Shown here in pieces: positions 36,070 to 44,300 of a DNA stretch of 50,728 bases. Source of the DNA: an uncultured Succiniclasticum sp. (lineage in GTDB: Bacteria; Bacillota; Negativicutes; Acidaminococcales; Acidaminococcaceae); assembly GCA_905235335.1 (NCBI GenBank), contig CAJOKZ010000004.1, forward strand, positions 1-50,728. The letters run 5' to 3'. Position 1 is the stretch's first letter. Each line of letters starts with the position of its first letter. Below the pieces are notes generated by a model, which saw only the letters and a program-made list of their open reading frames with translations, was not told the DNA's origin and did not search any database. The translations under genes were made by a program, and so were the position numbers.

Positions 36070-37833
36070 TTATATCGTCAGGGTCACGGTATTGAATCCG
36101 TGATATCTGCGGTACAGGTACTGGCGCGCATGGTTCTTGACCACATGCAGGCTCAGCGCCCTCACATCGATTCCTTCATCCTGTTCCAGCAAAATGTCTG
36201 TGGTTTTCTGCGGAAGACAGAACGGATTCATTTCCTGGGCATTGTCCCGCAGATGGACCTTAAAGGTTCCATCCTCCTGGGCAATAAGCGTAAGCTGGGT
36301 CAGTACGGGTTCTCCCTCCTGGCGGCTTCCCGCCCGTTCGTTCATCAGGCCGCAAATTTCCTCCATGGCCAGCCGAAGTGTATTACGGGTATGGACGCCG
36401 GCTCCCCAGGATATCGCAAATTTATCGATTTCATCCATCTGTGCCGCCACATCTTCCACCCTGCCAAAGAAAGAAGCGTTATAAATCCGCGCCGTATCGA
36501 TGGTGTGCCGCTCTCCCCGGCTGCGCTTATATATATAAAGGACAAACAGCGTAACAATCTCTGCCAGCGGGTAAACAAGCCAGAACGCATGGTACCCATA
36601 TTGCGAAAGGACAAAGAGCAAGGGCAGGCTGGCTCCCAGGCGGCGCATGAACACCACGAGGAATGCAGATTTCTCATCCTCCTCCGACTGCAGATAATTT
36701 TGCAGCAGCAGCGCGACCCCCATAAAAATCGATCCCAGACAGAATATTCTGGCCGCATAATAGGCATTGTCGGGATTCGAAATATCTTCCAGCCCAAAAA
36801 GCAGATCCAGTATCTGCGGCCATGCGACCACAAGCGCCGTGGACAGGATCCCCACGATCAGGGAATATATCAGGGCATAACGGAAAACCCTGTGAAGTTC
36901 GTCAAAATTGCACTCCGCAAAGAACGTGGAAAACAACGGCTGTGAAGTTTTGCCGATAAATTCAAACAGAAAGACAAACAGGACCGACAGATTTTCGATG
37001 ATACTGAATACAGCCACCCCGTCCGTTCCTGAAATGTTCCTGAGCAGATGGATGGCAACCAATGAAAAGATAGCATCGAATATGTACTCGGAGGAGGTGG
37101 CGAAGCCCAGCCGCATTGGCTTTATCGCCTCTTTAAAGGAAGCCGTCTCTTTTTGCAGCGCCAGATTCCCGGTCGGATACAGCATGATATATCCGACGGA
37201 AGCCAGCAGCGCCAATGCGTTAGATATAAAGAAACCGAAGCTGCACCCCGCAATGCCCCAGCCAAAAAAGATCAGCAGGAGGGCGCTGACAATGAGATTC
37301 ACCACACCGCATGCGGTCTGGATCACCGTGGCAAACGTATCTGCGTCGTCATTGCGCAGGTACGCGGTAACAACTTCCATCAAAATTTCAAAAGGAATGC
37401 CCAGCAGGATATAAAACAAATATTCCTTGGACATCTGATACACCACGCCGTCCCCTGGCTCTGTACCGAGAATTTGAAGCACGGTGTCCTCAAAGAAAAT
37501 CCCCCCGGCCGCTACCGCAAAGCCGATCACAGCGCTAATCCGCATAAAAAAGTTGAAAATCCGAAGGGCCTCCCCTTTCTTCCCTTCATGCATGAAGTTG
37601 CTGTAGACGATAGCTCCCCCAATGGAAAGGCCGAACACAAAAAATGTGGCCAACAGGAACAGGGGTGAGATAAAGCCGATGGCAGCCAACCCATCCATGC
37701 CGATGTTATGTCCGACTAAAATCGTGTCGCCGATTTCAGCAAGGGCCAGACCGATGGCAGCCAAAGGGGCCGGTAATACCGCCCGTATAAACATTTTTCT
37801 TGTAAAATATGCATAATCAACCGACTTACCCAA
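36070..37833 (-). CDS. MATE-family transporter fused to C-terminal RsbW/SpoIIAB-like HATPase domain
   Basis: MATE N-terminal ~450 aa (ALAEIGDTILVGHNIGMDGLAAIGF); C-terminal RLAMEEICGLMNE N-box, HLRDNAQEMNPF, HVVKNHARQYLYRRYHGFNTVTLTI; TTG start with aaggagg RBS at 37833. Confidence 0.85.
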   Translation of the reverse strand: MGKSVDYAYFTRKMFIRAVLPAPLAAIGLALAEIGDTILVGHNIGMDGLAAIGFISPLFLLATFFVFGLSIGGAIVYSNFMHEGKKGEALRIFNFFMRISAVIGFAVAAGGIFFEDTVLQILGTEPGDGVVYQMSKEYLFYILLGIPFEILMEVVTAYLRNDDADTFATVIQTACGVVNLIVSALLLIFFGWGIAGCSFGFFISNALALLASVGYIMLYPTGNLALQKETASFKEAIKPMRLGFATSSEYIFDAIFSLVAIHLLRNISGTDGVAVFSIIENLSVLFVFLFEFIGKTSQPLFSTFFAECNFDELHRVFRYALIYSLIVGILSTALVVAWPQILDLLFGLEDISNPDNAYYAARIFCLGSIFMGVALLLQNYLQSEEDEKSAFLVVFMRRLGASLPLLFVLSQYGYHAFWLVYPLAEIVTLFVLYIYKRSRGERHTIDTARIYNASFFGRVEDVAAQMDEIDKFAISWGAGVHTRNTLRLAMEEICGLMNERAGSRQEGEPVLTQLTLIAQEDGTFKVHLRDNAQEMNPFCLPQKTTDILLEQDEGIDVRALSLHVVKNHARQYLYRRYHGFNTVTLTI

Positions 37834-37973
37834 AAAAAATCCTCCTTGCCATGAATCATGCCGTAATACTGTCAGCACTGCAGCCCTTCAGGCCTTCCAT
37901 CACCGGGCAGCCCCGCCGCAGCATGCCGGCAGCCCCGGTACGAAGGCCGCGAACCTGCACTGGCGATCGTAAG

Positions 37974-40900
37974 TTACCGGCCTTCAATCTTTTTAACAAT
38001 AGCACCGATGGTTTCCCCGGCAGCCAGCCCGTGGATAGCAAGGGCATAGTTTTTGAGGAAGCGCTCGATAAATGCCTCGCTGTATTCCAGCGTATTGTAG
38101 GTAAGATTTACATAGAAGTCATCCCTGCGGCGATGCAGGAAGAAGTCGAAATTTTCATCCTCAAAATCTTCGATTTCTTCATAAAGGGCTTTCCCGCCGC
38201 AAAAGTCAAATTCACCGTCAATATCTTCCCCCTGATAGGAGAACGCGGAGATAAGGGGAACCGCATCCCCTTCATACAGCGCATGGCGGCGGCACAGCAG
38301 GATGTTGTTCTGCGTTTCCTTCACAAACTGCGCGGCCGTCATATCTTCTGCCCAGCGGGTACAGAGCGGATAATGCCTGTAAATGGCGCCCATGGTCCGC
38401 TCGAAACGGATATCATCCCGTCCATTGTAGATAGTGAGGACAACAGACGCCTGTTCCCCGTTGGCAAGTCCCTGCAACAGGCCGAACGCCGCTGCAAGGA
38501 TTGTGCCGTCCGTAATACCCTGGGCTTTGGTAAACGCATCCACAGCCGCAAGATCGATATGCAGGGGCACCGTCATATCTTTGGTAATATTTTCATCCTT
38601 CGGATCAAGATCACCCGGCAGTTCCCCGGCCTTTTCCGTAAACGAACGCATAAAATCCTGGTTCCACTGCTGTTCACGCTGATAATCCGGCGTACCGATC
38701 CTGTCCTCGATATCATCATAATAATCGAAGATGCTGTATTCTTCCGTCGCCGGCGGATTACCCAGATAGGCGTCGTTCACATCGTCCAGGAATACCGTAA
38801 TGGAATCGCCGTCAATGATGGGGTGTAAAAAGTCGAAATAAAATTCCTTGCTTACGCTGCCGTCCGTTTCTGTAACGGCGAAAAGGCGCATCACGAACAT
38901 ACGGGTTTCCGGACGGTTCATCGCCTGGCGCAGACGGGGCTTCAGCGCTTCGTAATCCGCACGGGAAATTTTTTCCACAACAGGCTTCAGATTTTTCAGA
39001 TCCCCCTGCTGCCAGCGAAGTTTTCCGTCCGCAGCGGCTACAAGCCTCGCATCCGTAGCAGGATGAGCCAGCAGCGTCTTTTCAATGGCATCCGCCAGCC
39101 GTTCCATATCGGTATCCGGCGCCAGATAAACCGTGGCATCACAGTGGAGGCCGTAGCCCTCTTCCAGCGAATTCCCCCATTCATAATGGAGTTCCTGAAG
39201 GGGACCGAAAAAGTGGGTATCCCGTTTTACGGTCTTCAGTTTATTGCCGTCTTCCCGCCGGAGCAGAAGCTGCGCGATACCGGCAGGAGTCTTTCCTTCA
39301 TAGACAAGATTGAAATTAAGCTTCAACTCCCTGCATTCCGCAAGCAGCCGGACCGTACTCAGGCTGTCGCCGCCTGCGGCAAAAAAGTCTTCATCCGCGC
39401 TGACGCGGTCCATGCCTAACGCAATGGCAAATCCTTTGGCAAGTTTCTCTTCCGTCTCGTTTTTCGGCGCCACATAAGGCGAGTCGCTCACGTAAACTTC
39501 CGGCTTGGGCAGCGCTTTTCTGTTGAGCTTGCCGTTTTGGTTACGGGGAATAGCGTCCATCTGCACAATAGCCGCCGGTACCATGTAAGGCGGTTTCCTT
39601 TCCCGGATAAACGCAGCCAGCGCCTTTCGGTCAATGGGACCGTCAGACACTACATAGGCAGCGATAAATTTTCCGCCGGCGGGATTGTCACAGGCTACTA
39701 CAACCGCATTTTTTACAGAAGGAAAATCGTGGATCACGCCTTCCACTTCCGCCAGTTCCACGCGGAAGCCGCGGATCTTCACCAGGCCGTCACGGCGGCC
39801 TACAAATTCAATGTTCCCATCCGGACGGTACCGGACAATGTCCCCCGTCCGATAGGCCGTTGCATAGTCCGGCTCCCCGGAGAAAGGATTCGGCACAAAG
39901 GCTTCCCTGGTCTTTTCCGGACGGTTCAGATAGCCTCCCGCCACCTGGATCCCTGCCACCCAGAGTTCGCCCAGCGCGCCGGGCGGAACACGGCGGCCCG
40001 CGCTGTCAACAATATAGATAGCCGTATTGTCCATGGGCCGGCCAATGGGAATATCCGGTTCGTATTCTGTCATATCATACGAGGTAATGGAAACGGTGGC
40101 CTCCGTCGGCCCATACTCATTGACCACAATATAAGGGTAGACCGGCTTGAACGGCACCAGCGTTTCCCCTCCCACCACGATATATTTCAGTTCAGGACAG
40201 TCCATTGACAGGGCAAACTGCCTTCCTACCTGACTGGGAAGGTCGCTGATACTGACATGGTGCTTCCGGATGATTTCCGCCAGCGCCGGCAGGTCCAGCT
40301 TCTTTTCTTCCGGTATTACCACGACCGCGCCCCCCACCGAAAGTGTCGGATACATATCCGCCAGGGATCCGTCAAAACCGTAGCTGTTGTAACAGGTGAC
40401 GCGTGTCTTCTCTGTAGGAGCAAAGTAGCGCCTGTACCATGCCGCATAAGCTATGATATTCTTCTGCAGCAGGCGGACACCTTTGGGTACACCGGTGGTA
40501 CCGGATGTATAAATCAACATGAACAGGTCATCCGGCTCCGGAAACCGGATCTGTGCAAGAACCGGTTCATCCGGACACGGCAGGGAAGAAATTTCCGACA
40601 ACCGCAGGACCGTTCCGTCAAATTCCGTAAAATTATCCAGCCGCGGCAACAGCTCATCCGCAATCACAATGAGCCTGGCCCCGGCATCCTTGGTCATAAA
40701 CGACAGCCGTTCGTCAGGATAGTTCGGGTCCAGCGGCTCATAGGCACATCCGGCCCGCATCACGCCCAGGGAAGCAATCACCATATATTCCGAGCGGGGA
40801 ATGAACACCGCCACCGTATCTCCCCGGCCCAGCCCCTGACGGTTTATATACCAGGCCAGCCGGTTGGCAAGATCCGCTGTCCGGGCATAGGTATACGAAG

Positions 40901-41612
40901 CATCTTCGTAAATCACCGCAATATTGTCCGGATACTCTGCCGCACGGGCATAAAACTGTTCCGCTATCGTCACCGACTTGTCGTATTCATGGGCCGTTTG
41001 GTTAAAACTGTCCAGCGCCTCCATGGTTTCCTTCGCCGTGATGCGGACACCTGCCAGCGTTTCCGCCTCCGGAAGGCTCAGCAGGATCTCCCGCCAGGAA
41101 AGACTCATCACACGGATAAATTCTTCCGTATACAAAGCGCGGTCATAAGAAATCATCAGATTTCCGGAAGCACCCTGGAATACGATGGCCAGACCCGCTC
41201 TCCGGTCCGGCGGAATGTCCCCGCCTGCCGAAAAAGCGATCGCCCGTCCCATTTCAGCGCCCAGGACTTCCCGGGCTTCTTCATCTTCCCAGGTAAAGGA
41301 AGCGCCGGATTCCAACATAGTCCCGACACGTTCCACAAACGCCTCTGTCCGCATATCCGGCTTGCATTCCAGCCTCAGGGGGCGGTAACCTCCCTTATCC
41401 CATACAAGAAACCCGGCCTCCCCCAGTCCTCCGTACATTCCCAGCAGCACCAACAGGCTGGCCGCCAATTCCGGGATCCCCGGAATTTTTTCAGACGGAA
41501 CCGCACAGGTTGCCCATCCTTCCCCTGCAGCTGCCTGCTTTTCCGGAACCGGCAGACAATCCGGCATCTCAGCATCAAAAAAAGTTGCGCACCATTCCGT
41601 CTTGTTCATCAT
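37974..41612 (-). CDS. Nonribosomal peptide synthetase: truncated C-like N-terminus, A, PCP, C
   Basis: A-domain cores LIYTSGTTGVPKGV, NEYGPTEATV, YRTGDIVRYRPDGNIEFVGRRDGLVKIRGFRVELAEVEG, NGKLNRKALP; PCP DFFAAGGDSLSTVRLL; C-domain HPIIDG; start MMNKTEW with aaagg RBS. Confidence 0.93.
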   Translation of the reverse strand: MMNKTEWCATFFDAEMPDCLPVPEKQAAAGEGWATCAVPSEKIPGIPELAASLLVLLGMYGGLGEAGFLVWDKGGYRPLRLECKPDMRTEAFVERVGTMLESGASFTWEDEEAREVLGAEMGRAIAFSAGGDIPPDRRAGLAIVFQGASGNLMISYDRALYTEEFIRVMSLSWREILLSLPEAETLAGVRITAKETMEALDSFNQTAHEYDKSVTIAEQFYARAAEYPDNIAVIYEDASYTYARTADLANRLAWYINRQGLGRGDTVAVFIPRSEYMVIASLGVMRAGCAYEPLDPNYPDERLSFMTKDAGARLIVIADELLPRLDNFTEFDGTVLRLSEISSLPCPDEPVLAQIRFPEPDDLFMLIYTSGTTGVPKGVRLLQKNIIAYAAWYRRYFAPTEKTRVTCYNSYGFDGSLADMYPTLSVGGAVVVIPEEKKLDLPALAEIIRKHHVSISDLPSQVGRQFALSMDCPELKYIVVGGETLVPFKPVYPYIVVNEYGPTEATVSITSYDMTEYEPDIPIGRPMDNTAIYIVDSAGRRVPPGALGELWVAGIQVAGGYLNRPEKTREAFVPNPFSGEPDYATAYRTGDIVRYRPDGNIEFVGRRDGLVKIRGFRVELAEVEGVIHDFPSVKNAVVVACDNPAGGKFIAAYVVSDGPIDRKALAAFIRERKPPYMVPAAIVQMDAIPRNQNGKLNRKALPKPEVYVSDSPYVAPKNETEEKLAKGFAIALGMDRVSADEDFFAAGGDSLSTVRLLAECRELKLNFNLVYEGKTPAGIAQLLLRREDGNKLKTVKRDTHFFGPLQELHYEWGNSLEEGYGLHCDATVYLAPDTDMERLADAIEKTLLAHPATDARLVAAADGKLRWQQGDLKNLKPVVEKISRADYEALKPRLRQAMNRPETRMFVMRLFAVTETDGSVSKEFYFDFLHPIIDGDSITVFLDDVNDAYLGNPPATEEYSIFDYYDDIEDRIGTPDYQREQQWNQDFMRSFTEKAGELPGDLDPKDENITKDMTVPLHIDLAAVDAFTKAQGITDGTILAAAFGLLQGLANGEQASVVLTIYNGRDDIRFERTMGAIYRHYPLCTRWAEDMTAAQFVKETQNNILLCRRHALYEGDAVPLISAFSYQGEDIDGEFDFCGGKALYEEIEDFEDENFDFFLHRRRDDFYVNLTYNTLEYSEAFIERFLKNYALAIHGLAAGETIGAIVKKIEGR

Positions 41613-41688
41613 CAAAAACCCTTTCTTTCTTAAATTAAATGCACTGACATGCCTCTGCACAGGCATTGCGCTTTCCGGAAAATCCCGG

Positions 41689-43275
41689 TTATTTCAGCAG
41701 TTCCGTAACAACACAGTTTTCGTCCATCAGGGCGGCGACCATCTTTTCCATCACAGAAGCAAACCGGCGCATCGCCGCTTCCGTGTACATCCCGTTATCA
41801 TAATCCAGCACCAGGGAATAGGCCCCGTCATCATGGGAGTTCACTTCGATATCCAGCGTGTTCTCCGCCGCTGAAATTTCATTGGCAGGCATCTCAACGA
41901 TTTCACATTCCGTGTTACCCAATTTAATTGTGCCCCGGCGCCCCATGCTGCCCTTCTGAAGGATAAAGCTTGCACAATCATCTTCCAGTCCTTCAGCATA
42001 TACGACATCAAGACTCTTGCGATATTGCATTCCCTGCTCGACACGATCCTCCAAACCTTTAAGATATGCCGCAGCCGTAATATCTTCCGAAAATTCCCAG
42101 CGGATGGGGAACTGGTCCAGCATCAGGCCCATAAGGCGCATTTCCGACAACCCAACGCGGCCGTTATGCACCCATCCTATGATCGCATCCCGGCTTCCTG
42201 CGGTTTTCGCCAAAGCCAGCATGGCTGCTCCCATGAAAAATGTATTCTCGGTAAACTCCTTCCCTCTGAAAAAACTTTTCTCAATAACAGAAAACGGGAC
42301 TTCGATTTCATGTTCCGGGGTCTCGCTTTCTCCTTCGACATCCGTCGGGGGCAGATGTTTCGCCTCATCAAACCCTTCCAGCATCTTTCGCCAGTAGTTA
42401 TGCCCTTCCTCCAGTTCCGCCTGCGGGATACGGGACTCTTCCAGAATATATCCGGCATAAGAGGCATGGTGTGCCTCTTTTGCCTTCGCCTTAGAATGGG
42501 AATAGCGCTTGTCCAGCTCCCGGTTGAAAAGCAGCGCGATCGCAGCGCCATCCATGATCGCATGGTAAAAATCTATATACAGGTATTTTTCCGAAGATGT
42601 CACCATGAGATAAATCCGGTACAGCGGATGGTCTATCAATTCATAAGGCTGTTTTACAAACTGCTTCCGTTTTTCGAAAGCTTCATCCGAAAGCGTTTCC
42701 ACGTAGACCCGTTCCGTCGCTCCGTCAAAACGCTGGCAGATATCTCCCGTTTCCGGATGGATCACCAGACGGCAGCGGAAAATATCATATGAGTTAATAA
42801 TATCGTTGACAGCATCGGCCAGCCGCTCCATATCAATAGACGGATCCAGCCGGATCAGGGCGCCGGTGTTCATCATAGTGGAACGGGCCCGCATGAAGTG
42901 TGTATCCACCATCCACCGCTGAATCGGGCGAAGAGGATAGAACGTGACGGATTTTTCTTCCGCATCCTTCCGGACAATGGTGATGACGTTATCAAAACTG
43001 GTGGTTTCCAATACGTCCAATACCTCCGGCGACGGATACATCAGTTTTATTTCCCCATCCTGACGGATCATGATTTTTTTCGCAAGGAAAAGGGACCGCA
43101 ATCCCATGGAAGCAATGTAGTTCACCCGGGAAAAATCCAGGAGGGCCAGCTTCATTCCCTGCACTTCTTCCGCAAAAACTTTATTCAGCTCCACAGCTTC
43201 CACCGCGCCGAGTTTTCCCTCAAGTTCCAAGGTAAGAGTACTTCCTTCTTTTTTTGTACGAATTTCCAATGCCAT
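41689..43275 (-). CDS. STAS (anti-anti-sigma-like) domain fused to NRPS condensation-like domain
   Basis: N-terminus LTLELEGKLGAVEAVELNK...ALLDFSRVNYIASMGLRSLFLAKK (STAS); C-terminus LRPIQRWMVDTH...FYHAIMDGAAIALLFNREL (C domain HxxxDG). Confidence 0.88.
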   Translation of the reverse strand: MALEIRTKKEGSTLTLELEGKLGAVEAVELNKVFAEEVQGMKLALLDFSRVNYIASMGLRSLFLAKKIMIRQDGEIKLMYPSPEVLDVLETTSFDNVITIVRKDAEEKSVTFYPLRPIQRWMVDTHFMRARSTMMNTGALIRLDPSIDMERLADAVNDIINSYDIFRCRLVIHPETGDICQRFDGATERVYVETLSDEAFEKRKQFVKQPYELIDHPLYRIYLMVTSSEKYLYIDFYHAIMDGAAIALLFNRELDKRYSHSKAKAKEAHHASYAGYILEESRIPQAELEEGHNYWRKMLEGFDEAKHLPPTDVEGESETPEHEIEVPFSVIEKSFFRGKEFTENTFFMGAAMLALAKTAGSRDAIIGWVHNGRVGLSEMRLMGLMLDQFPIRWEFSEDITAAAYLKGLEDRVEQGMQYRKSLDVVYAEGLEDDCASFILQKGSMGRRGTIKLGNTECEIVEMPANEISAAENTLDIEVNSHDDGAYSLVLDYDNGMYTEAAMRRFASVMEKMVAALMDENCVVTELLK

Positions 43276-43377
43276 TTGCAATTTCCTTTCTCTGCTGTTT
43301 ATCCTTTGGCTACAGGAAGATTTTTTTAAAACAAATTTTTTTCAAGTCTTCATTATTTCATGCATTTTGATTTTTTC

Positions 43378-43386
43378 ATTATACCA
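43378..43386 (-). promoter_or_regulatory. Extended -10 promoter for STAS-NRPS operon
   Basis: - strand TGGTATAAT at 43386-43378, upstream of 43275 start; -35 weak. Confidence 0.6.
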
Positions 43387-43418
43387 TATTAACCCGAAGC
43401 ATAACAGTATTTTATGGT

Positions 43419-43438
43419 AAAGATTATGTGAAATCTTT
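43419..43438. promoter_or_regulatory. Palindrome AAAGATT-N6-AATCTTT upstream of STAS-NRPS promoter (candidate operator)
   Basis: Perfect 7-bp arms directly upstream of the extended -10 promoter. Confidence 0.45.
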
Positions 43439-43624
43439 GCTTGCAGCAGTTTCTTTGAATGTATATATTCGATGCGAAAACTTTGCCCTGCAGGACGATA
43501 TGCAGAACACCGGCGCAGTTTCAGGGAATAGAAACAGCGAACGGGTCAGACCGGACAGCCGTTCCCGTTTCCTGTACCAACCGGGTATTTTTCCGCAAAA
43601 TTCCTGCATTCCTGCTTGTTAGCC

Positions 43625-43653
43625 TTGACAAACAGAGAACGATAGTGTATCAT
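43625..43653 (+). promoter_or_regulatory. feo operon promoter
   Basis: TTGACA (43625-43630), 17-bp spacer, TATCAT (43648-43653). Confidence 0.78.
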
Positions 43654-43657
43654 TTGG

Positions 43658-43671
43658 TTAGTCTTGGCTAA
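43658..43671. promoter_or_regulatory. DtxR/MntR-family-like operator TTAGTCTTGGCTAA
   Basis: Palindromic TTAG-N6-CTAA overlapping start of feo transcript; related boxes at 43619-43632 and 43714-43727. Confidence 0.55.
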
Positions 43672-43713
43672 CACCTTTTGCGGAGCGGCCGGGACATTAT
43701 TTTCAGCCATGAG

Positions 43714-43727
43714 TTAGCTTTAGCTAA
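43714..43727. promoter_or_regulatory. DtxR/MntR-family-like operator TTAGCTTTAGCTAA
   Basis: Palindromic TTAG-N6-CTAA upstream of first feoA. Confidence 0.55.
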
Positions 43728-43752
43728 TCAATGTGATGCAAGGAGGCAGATC

Positions 43753-43965
43753 ATGTTACCACTTCCCACTGCACAGGAAGGTGAAATTATCGAAATCAGA
43801 AAAATTACCGGAAACGACAGCACCCGGCTCCATCTCGCGGAACTGGGGTTTACCGTCGGCAGCAGGATCACCGTGGTCAGCCGTCTGGGCGGCAATATGA
43901 TTTTACAGGTGAGGGATGCCCGTATCGCGCTGGATGAATCCATGGCCCGGCGCATCATGTACTGA
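43753..43965 (+). CDS. feoA: FeoA-domain protein
   Basis: 70 aa; EIIEIRKITGNDSTRLHLAELGFTVGSRITVVSRLGGNMILQVRDARIALDESMARRI; RBS aggagg. Confidence 0.88.
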   Translation: MLPLPTAQEGEIIEIRKITGNDSTRLHLAELGFTVGSRITVVSRLGGNMILQVRDARIALDESMARRIMY

Positions 43966-44081
43966 CAGATTTTAAGGAAAACTGATTCATACGGTTGCGC
44001 TCATAAAAATAGCGCGACGCTTTGTCATTTTACTATTTTGTTTATCAAAAATATCTATCATACAACGGGAGGAGATTCCAA

Positions 44082-44300
44082 ATGACATTAAATGAAGTTC
44101 CGGTTGGCGGCGTCTGCACCGTTACCAAACTCAAAGGCGAAGGAAAACTGCGCCGGCGCATCATGGACATGGGCATCACCAAAGGAGTGGAGATAAAGGT
44201 CGTAAAGATTGCGCCGCTGGGCGACCCCATGGAACTGAACGTGCGCGGCTACGAACTTTCGATCCGCAAAAATGAAGCGGAGAACATCGAAGTGCAATAA
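44082..44300 (+). CDS. feoA: FeoA-domain protein (second copy)
   Basis: 72 aa; VGGVCTVTKLKGEGKLRRRIMDMGITKGVEIKVVKIAPLGDPMELNVRGYELSIRKNEAENIEV; RBS gggagga. Confidence 0.92.
   Translation: MTLNEVPVGGVCTVTKLKGEGKLRRRIMDMGITKGVEIKVVKIAPLGDPMELNVRGYELSIRKNEAENIEVQ

Follow-up and report, generated by a model that had tools for sequence, protein, structure and literature searches.

A STAS domain on a condensation enzyme and a degenerate RsbW-like domain on a MATE transporter: a candidate docking pair in Succiniclasticum

A STAS domain with a serine at the site that is phosphorylated in SpoIIAA forms the N-terminus of a condensation protein encoded in a 50,728-nucleotide contig from an uncultured rumen Succiniclasticum sp. 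(hereafter the window, meaning this whole stretch of DNA). STAS/HATPase pairs are known mainly as sigma-factor switches, and the locus raises the question of what such a domain does on a biosynthetic enzyme. A first-pass annotation had suggested that the domain may still be a kinase substrate, and that its phosphorylation could control the condensation partner or its docking. We address this question through profile alignments, structural models and the gene neighborhoods of related loci.

The STAS–condensation protein and its conserved serine

The fusion protein, which we call STAS-C, comprises 528 amino acids and is encoded on the minus strand at 41689–43275. Its assignment is supported by Pfam matches to STAS and Condensation, by an AlphaFold2 model (mean pLDDT 81) and by its relatives. 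The reading frame starts with an ATG at 43275, with AAAGGA 8 bases upstream, and ends at 41689. Residues 1–103 (42967–43275, minus strand) form the STAS domain (PF01740, E = 4.8e-10), for which Pfam, the PDB profile alignment and the AlphaFold model all indicate an anti-sigma-antagonist-class fold; the PDB matches of the family profile are TM1442, SpoIIAA and RsbV. The domain scores below the curated NCBIfam cut-offs for anti-sigma antagonists, reaching 49.6 bits against TIGR00377 ant_ant_sig (E = 3e-13; cut-off 53.45) and 21.7 bits against spore_II_AA (cut-off 114.75).

The remainder of the protein, residues ~111–518 (41725–42942, minus strand), is a free-standing condensation domain (PF00668, E = 4.5e-42), and the fold matches of the model are NRPS condensation-domain structures. 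Its motif DFYHAIMDG keeps the second His, the Asp and the Gly of HHxxxDG, with Tyr in place of the first His, and the three retained residues are invariant across the STAS-C family. The STAS domain had been described as NRPS-fused; it is indeed fused to a condensation protein, but this protein stands apart from the NRPS, which is the next gene (37974–41666, minus strand). According to Pfam and to a reading of the first lobe from the sequence, the NRPS consists of a C-terminal condensation lobe followed by A, PCP and C domains, with the pocket code DGADVGEVSK when mapped on a manually entered GrsA sequence. It opens with only this C-terminal lobe (40980–41666, minus strand), and the missing condensation step may come from the separate STAS-C protein.

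The translated STAS domain contains LLDFSRVNYIASMGLRSLF, within which lies Ser56, encoded by TCC at 43108–43110 on the minus strand. When the family profile is aligned to PDB sequences, Ser56 falls in the column of SpoIIAA Ser58, where 1th8 and 1thn read F-M-D-S-S-G and the control entries 1tid and 1til carry Ala. This comparison answers the alignment check proposed earlier: it places serine at the phosphosite, bearing out this part of the annotation. In the AlphaFold model, helix 2 begins at residue 56. The serine is present in all 33 STAS-C proteins, whose STAS domains are on average 43% identical in pairwise comparison, and in 25 of 25 once near-copies were removed (<90% identity); judged from these alignments, its conservation is far beyond chance. 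It is also found at the same site in all 12 free STAS proteins that these loci encode. The codon is TCN in STAS-C and mostly AGY in the free proteins.

The flanking changes that had been pointed out, Ala and Met next to the serine, are both present, but only one of them is unusual. At SpoIIAA position 57 the STAS-C family has Ser in 21 proteins, Ala in 12 and Asp in none, so that Ala is a family norm, and we rejected the Asp57-to-Ala change as a sign of phosphosite loss. Position 59 is Met in the window alone and Ala in the other 32 STAS-C proteins; the Met59 codon lies at 43105–43107 and is codon 57 of STAS-C. Among the genus members with enough flank, the window, which bears Met59, is also the only one without an adjacent PP2C phosphatase gene.

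Gene neighborhood across relatives

A genome-wide scan yielded 77 loci, whose sources, where stated in the record title, are the rumen and other gut sites of ruminants. They belong to Succiniclasticum, Selenomonas, Schwartzia, Anaerovibrio, Quinella and unnamed Selenomonadales, and those nearest to the window are from Succiniclasticum. Besides that of the window, 33 STAS-C loci, one of them partial, come from other records. Loci fetched by two tools were counted once, and several of the relatives are MAGs. Downstream of STAS-C, all 31 loci with enough flank (nearly all of them from Negativicutes) encode a MATE transporter whose HATPase tail has the SpoIIAB/RsbW fold, a count that leaves aside three STAS-C loci that reach a contig edge. 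Within the genus, the HATPase occurs in seven of eight genomes with STAS-C (the contig of the eighth is cut) and in none of six genomes without it. Because an NRPS accompanies only about half of the STAS-C loci, the core pair is STAS-C and the MATE-HATPase. At least 14 loci have no NRPS in the neighborhood read, all of which keep STAS-C and the MATE-HATPase, and two-gene loci made up of this pair exist; the NRPS was therefore rejected as an obligate partner of the STAS domain.

Two further observations concern the distribution of these genes. A contig labeled Fretibacterium (Synergistota; L078) holds the whole cluster, with a STAS-C 66% identical to that of the window, which reflects either horizontal transfer or a binning error. 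Tandem condensation proteins without a STAS domain occur in Selenomonadaceae MAGs (L106:2197–6247, L119 and L133), often with no NRPS near.

A dCache-HAMP-SpoIIE gene (PP2C) lies upstream of STAS-C in 19 of the 30 loci with upstream flank, within 3.6 kb and mostly adjacent, and its active-site motifs (GDVSGKG/YTDGV/QSDD) are intact. Some Selenomonas loci carry an extra free STAS protein between PP2C and STAS-C, and L083 additionally carries an intact RsbW in that position. An RsbV-RsbW-PP2C operon directly follows the MATE-HATPase in four sister genomes (L072–L075); in the genome of the window this operon is unlinked to STAS-C and lies on contig C18. The gene order in L046 is feoA, PP2C (L046:14953–18051), STAS-C, NRPS and MATE-HATPase. 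In the window, feoA is directly beside STAS-C, and the gap at 43276–43677 is without the phosphatase gene that close relatives carry there. The region 43276–44300 contains two short feoA-like genes (at 43678 and 44022) in front of feoB.

Since the window nests inside a PP2C-bearing clade of the tree (support 99/96), the absence of the gene is most simply explained by loss. A tblastn search upstream of STAS-C for a PP2C remnant found none, the best match being 17 amino acids at E = 0.08. We also considered relocation within the genome and rejected it, as both intact PP2Cs (on contigs C8 and C18) appear to be different paralogs; at 96% completeness, the genome leaves room for a copy in the missing part. 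The C18 protein shares 52–53% identity with the RsbV-RsbW-linked PP2C and no more than 47% with any STAS-C-linked one, while the C8 protein is about equally far from both. A promoter scan upstream of STAS-C gave nothing clearly above shuffled sequences, and no sigma-factor gene was recognized in or near the operon.

The HATPase tail of the MATE transporter

The transporter gene (36070–37878, minus strand) matches MatE (E = 8e-26) and, at its C-terminal end, HATPase_c_2 (E = 1e-5), the latter with 26.0 bits in the window against a cut-off of 27.4 and above the cut-off in the genome search. The tail itself (36073–36516, minus strand), modeled with 11 sequences, adopts a degenerate SpoIIAB/RsbW fold and is the proposed docking partner of the STAS domain. 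Its best Foldseek matches in the PDB are SpoIIAB (1tid, E = 3e-7), UsfX-RsfB (8ih8) and RsbW (6m37), and most of these best-matching entries also hold a STAS antagonist. Profile and fold searches were needed for this assignment: phmmer with the single window HATPase found no match in the PDB. A phmmer search with the genome's own RsbW gave no match at E 0.01.

In SpoIIAB, Glu46 is the catalytic base, Asn50 chelates Mg, Arg105 stabilizes the transition state, and Gly107 and Gly109 touch the nucleotide (PMC10345196). Across HATPase-domain proteins, the N-box Asn has been characterized as absolutely conserved (PMC9137472). The window HATPase has the GHKL fold and keeps Glu46 and the G1 Asp81 (SpoIIAB numbering), but it lacks the Mg-chelating Asn that accompanies the Glu, as well as the G2 glycines; the changes are Asn50 to Leu, Gly83 to Ala, Arg105 to Val, Gly107 to Ala and Gly109 to Ser. 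The loss of Arg105 weighs less, as this residue is also missing from free RsbW-like proteins. The SpoIIAA, SpoIIAB and GrsA sequences used as references were entered by hand; the serine column was checked independently against PDB sequences and the HATPase Asn column against RsbW 6m36.

The same erosion extends across the family. The full set of Glu46, Asn50, Asp81, Gly107 and Gly109 is found in none of the 31 MATE-HATPases that accompany STAS-C, whereas all nine free RsbW-like proteins encoded at these or related loci have it. Individually, the Glu is kept in 28 of the 31 and the G1 Asp in 30, whereas the Mg-binding Asn is lost in 28; three Anaerovibrio copies keep Asn50 and four Selenomonas copies keep both G2 glycines. 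Motif loss of this kind suggests, without proving, a loss of ATP binding or kinase activity. Because the N-box Asn and the G2 residues are gone, the window HATPase is expected to have little or no kinase activity.

The erosion can be arranged as a series. Loci with PP2C keep parts of G1 and G2, and G2 is lost in the group of Selenomonas and Anaerovibrio loci that is mostly devoid of PP2C. A STAS-less sister clade has no MATE nearby or has lost the end of the HATPase, which is cut before the G2 box in 12 of 15 relatives and complete in three; as these relatives form a single clade in a tree rooted only at its midpoint, the truncation may represent few events. Truncation where the STAS domain is absent fits a HATPase that is kept for binding STAS.

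Proposed docking at the exporter, rival readings and known systems

We hypothesize that the STAS domain and the HATPase tail are a binding pair of the SpoIIAA/SpoIIAB type that once served as a transcription switch and now serves as a dock. In this arrangement, STAS would recruit the free-standing condensation enzyme to the exporter, along with the small NRPS (through STAS-C) where one is present, so that the product would be made where it leaves the cell. Physical binding, tethering and product export are what we infer from these comparisons, and we regard a contact that tethers the enzyme to the exporter as the likeliest of the readings, at even odds. Assuming a SpoIIAA/SpoIIAB-like mode of binding, Ser56 would sit at the contact, and because of this location it could be kept for binding, for phosphorylation or for both. 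In the relatives with PP2C, docking is probably still gated by phosphorylation, with a kinase from elsewhere and the membrane-sensor phosphatase reversing its action; the RsbW with intact motifs from the RsbV-RsbW-PP2C operon (on contig C18 here) and the RsbW inside L083 are the candidates. In the window, where the phosphatase is missing and the HATPase is very degenerate, docking is probably constitutive and phosphorylation of Ser56 is doubtful. Taken as a whole, a STAS/RsbW-like pair split between condensation enzyme and exporter would form a clamp linking the assembly of a peptide to its export at the membrane. A phosphatase would gate this clamp in most relatives, and in the window the clamp would be constitutive; we give this tentative reading slightly less than even credence.

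The kinase-substrate idea retains its invariant serine, the SpoIIAB/RsbW-fold partner downstream in 31 of 31 loci and the PP2C gene in 19 of 30, but it is set back by the degenerate cognate kinase and by the loss of PP2C in the window. Control of docking survives better than phosphorylation by the cognate HATPase, the part of the proposal that the Leu50, Ala107 and Ser109 of the window and the absence of a full motif set in the family speak against. We accordingly consider it improbable that the HATPase encoded in the operon itself actively phosphorylates Ser56 and so controls the condensation enzyme or its docking: the constant serine, the neighboring phosphatase of the relatives and the widely kept catalytic Glu and G1 Asp speak for it, but the N-box Asn described as absolutely conserved is generally lost, the G2 box is eroded, in SpoIIAB the residues missing from the window (including Arg105, here Val) serve in Mg chelation, ATP contact or transition-state stabilization (PMC10345196), and no PP2C gene adjoins STAS-C in the window. 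With the cognate motifs lost, phosphorylation of Ser56 would need another kinase, such as the C18 RsbW. Such a kinase could act as a switch in trans, the RsbW of the RsbV-RsbW-PP2C operon phosphorylating Ser56 and freeing STAS-C from a dead MATE-HATPase. The motifs of this RsbW are intact, its operon follows the MATE-HATPase directly in L072–L075, and L083 places an intact RsbW between PP2C and STAS-C; we nevertheless think the switch unlikely, as RsbW already has its own RsbV substrate, and the window has an unlinked operon, a unique Met59 and no PP2C beside STAS-C. The output of a switch could be the MATE body or the condensation enzyme. The retention of PP2C beside STAS-C implies that phosphorylation still matters in relatives, which counts against a plain dock.

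Two other readings look away from the exporter. The position of STAS-C beside an NRPS, with the STAS domain fused to a condensation domain, might suggest docking to an NRPS carrier or another enzyme, but the loci without a nearby NRPS, each with STAS-C and the MATE-HATPase, make this very improbable. We give hardly any credence to STAS-C as a feedback regulator, in which a used or idle condensation domain would sense product and the STAS domain, being of the anti-sigma-antagonist type, would act as an anti-anti-sigma factor on transcription; the partner HATPase is membrane-tethered in a transporter, the operon has no recognized sigma-factor gene, and the active-site His, Asp and Gly of the condensation domain are conserved.

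In the docking reading, the two halves of a partner switch have become attached to an enzyme and to a transporter, respectively, an arrangement by which peptide-making enzymes might be positioned at an exporter; in relatives, the membrane phosphatase may gate this placement. The stages of decay within the family (PP2C with partial kinase motifs; neither PP2C nor G2; no STAS and a shortened HATPase) make the order of loss testable. A full-text literature search combining STAS domain, condensation domain and nonribosomal peptide turned up no publication. The individual parts are known; in the literature searched, we found no case of a condensation enzyme bearing a STAS domain together with a MATE exporter bearing a pseudo-kinase.

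The system resembles SpoIIAA/SpoIIAB/SpoIIE and RsbV/RsbW/RsbU in its phosphosite serine, its SpoIIAB/RsbW-fold partner and, in relatives, its sensor-domain PP2C. It differs from them in that the STAS domain is part of a biosynthetic enzyme and the HATPase is on a MATE transporter; moreover, the window HATPase lacks Asn50 and the G2 glycines, and neither a sigma factor nor an adjacent phosphatase accompanies it. SypA/SypE and BtrV/BtrW (reviewed in PMC8256260) are likewise STAS-HATPase pairs with a conserved serine whose output is not a known sigma factor, but they consist of single-domain STAS proteins and active kinases, whereas here the STAS domain is fused to a condensation domain. Free-standing condensation proteins such as SgcC5 (4znm) share the single domain apart from a megasynthase, the xHxxxDG motif and the fold, and lack the added N-terminal STAS domain and the adjacent MATE-HATPase.

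The closest gene sets elsewhere in Bacillota (L183–L185 and L068) have STAS and PP2C genes near that of a MATE transporter with a fused RsbW-like domain; there the STAS domain is a separate protein and not, as in STAS-C, fused to a condensation domain. RsbW-tailed MATE transporters, mostly beside STAS and PP2C, occur throughout L183–L187 and L068, in distant Bacillota and Selenomonas relatives, and that of L185 keeps all tested kinase motifs except the G1 glycine. A second enzyme-borne STAS domain beside a MATE-HATPase is found in L057, fused to an APH-type phosphotransferase domain and clustered with two NRPS genes and the transporter (L057:1–1088 with L057:2457–10201, both minus strand). Given these MATE-HATPase/STAS/PP2C sets and the STAS-APH fusion, the window may exemplify a more general tendency for STAS domains to be appended to enzymes.
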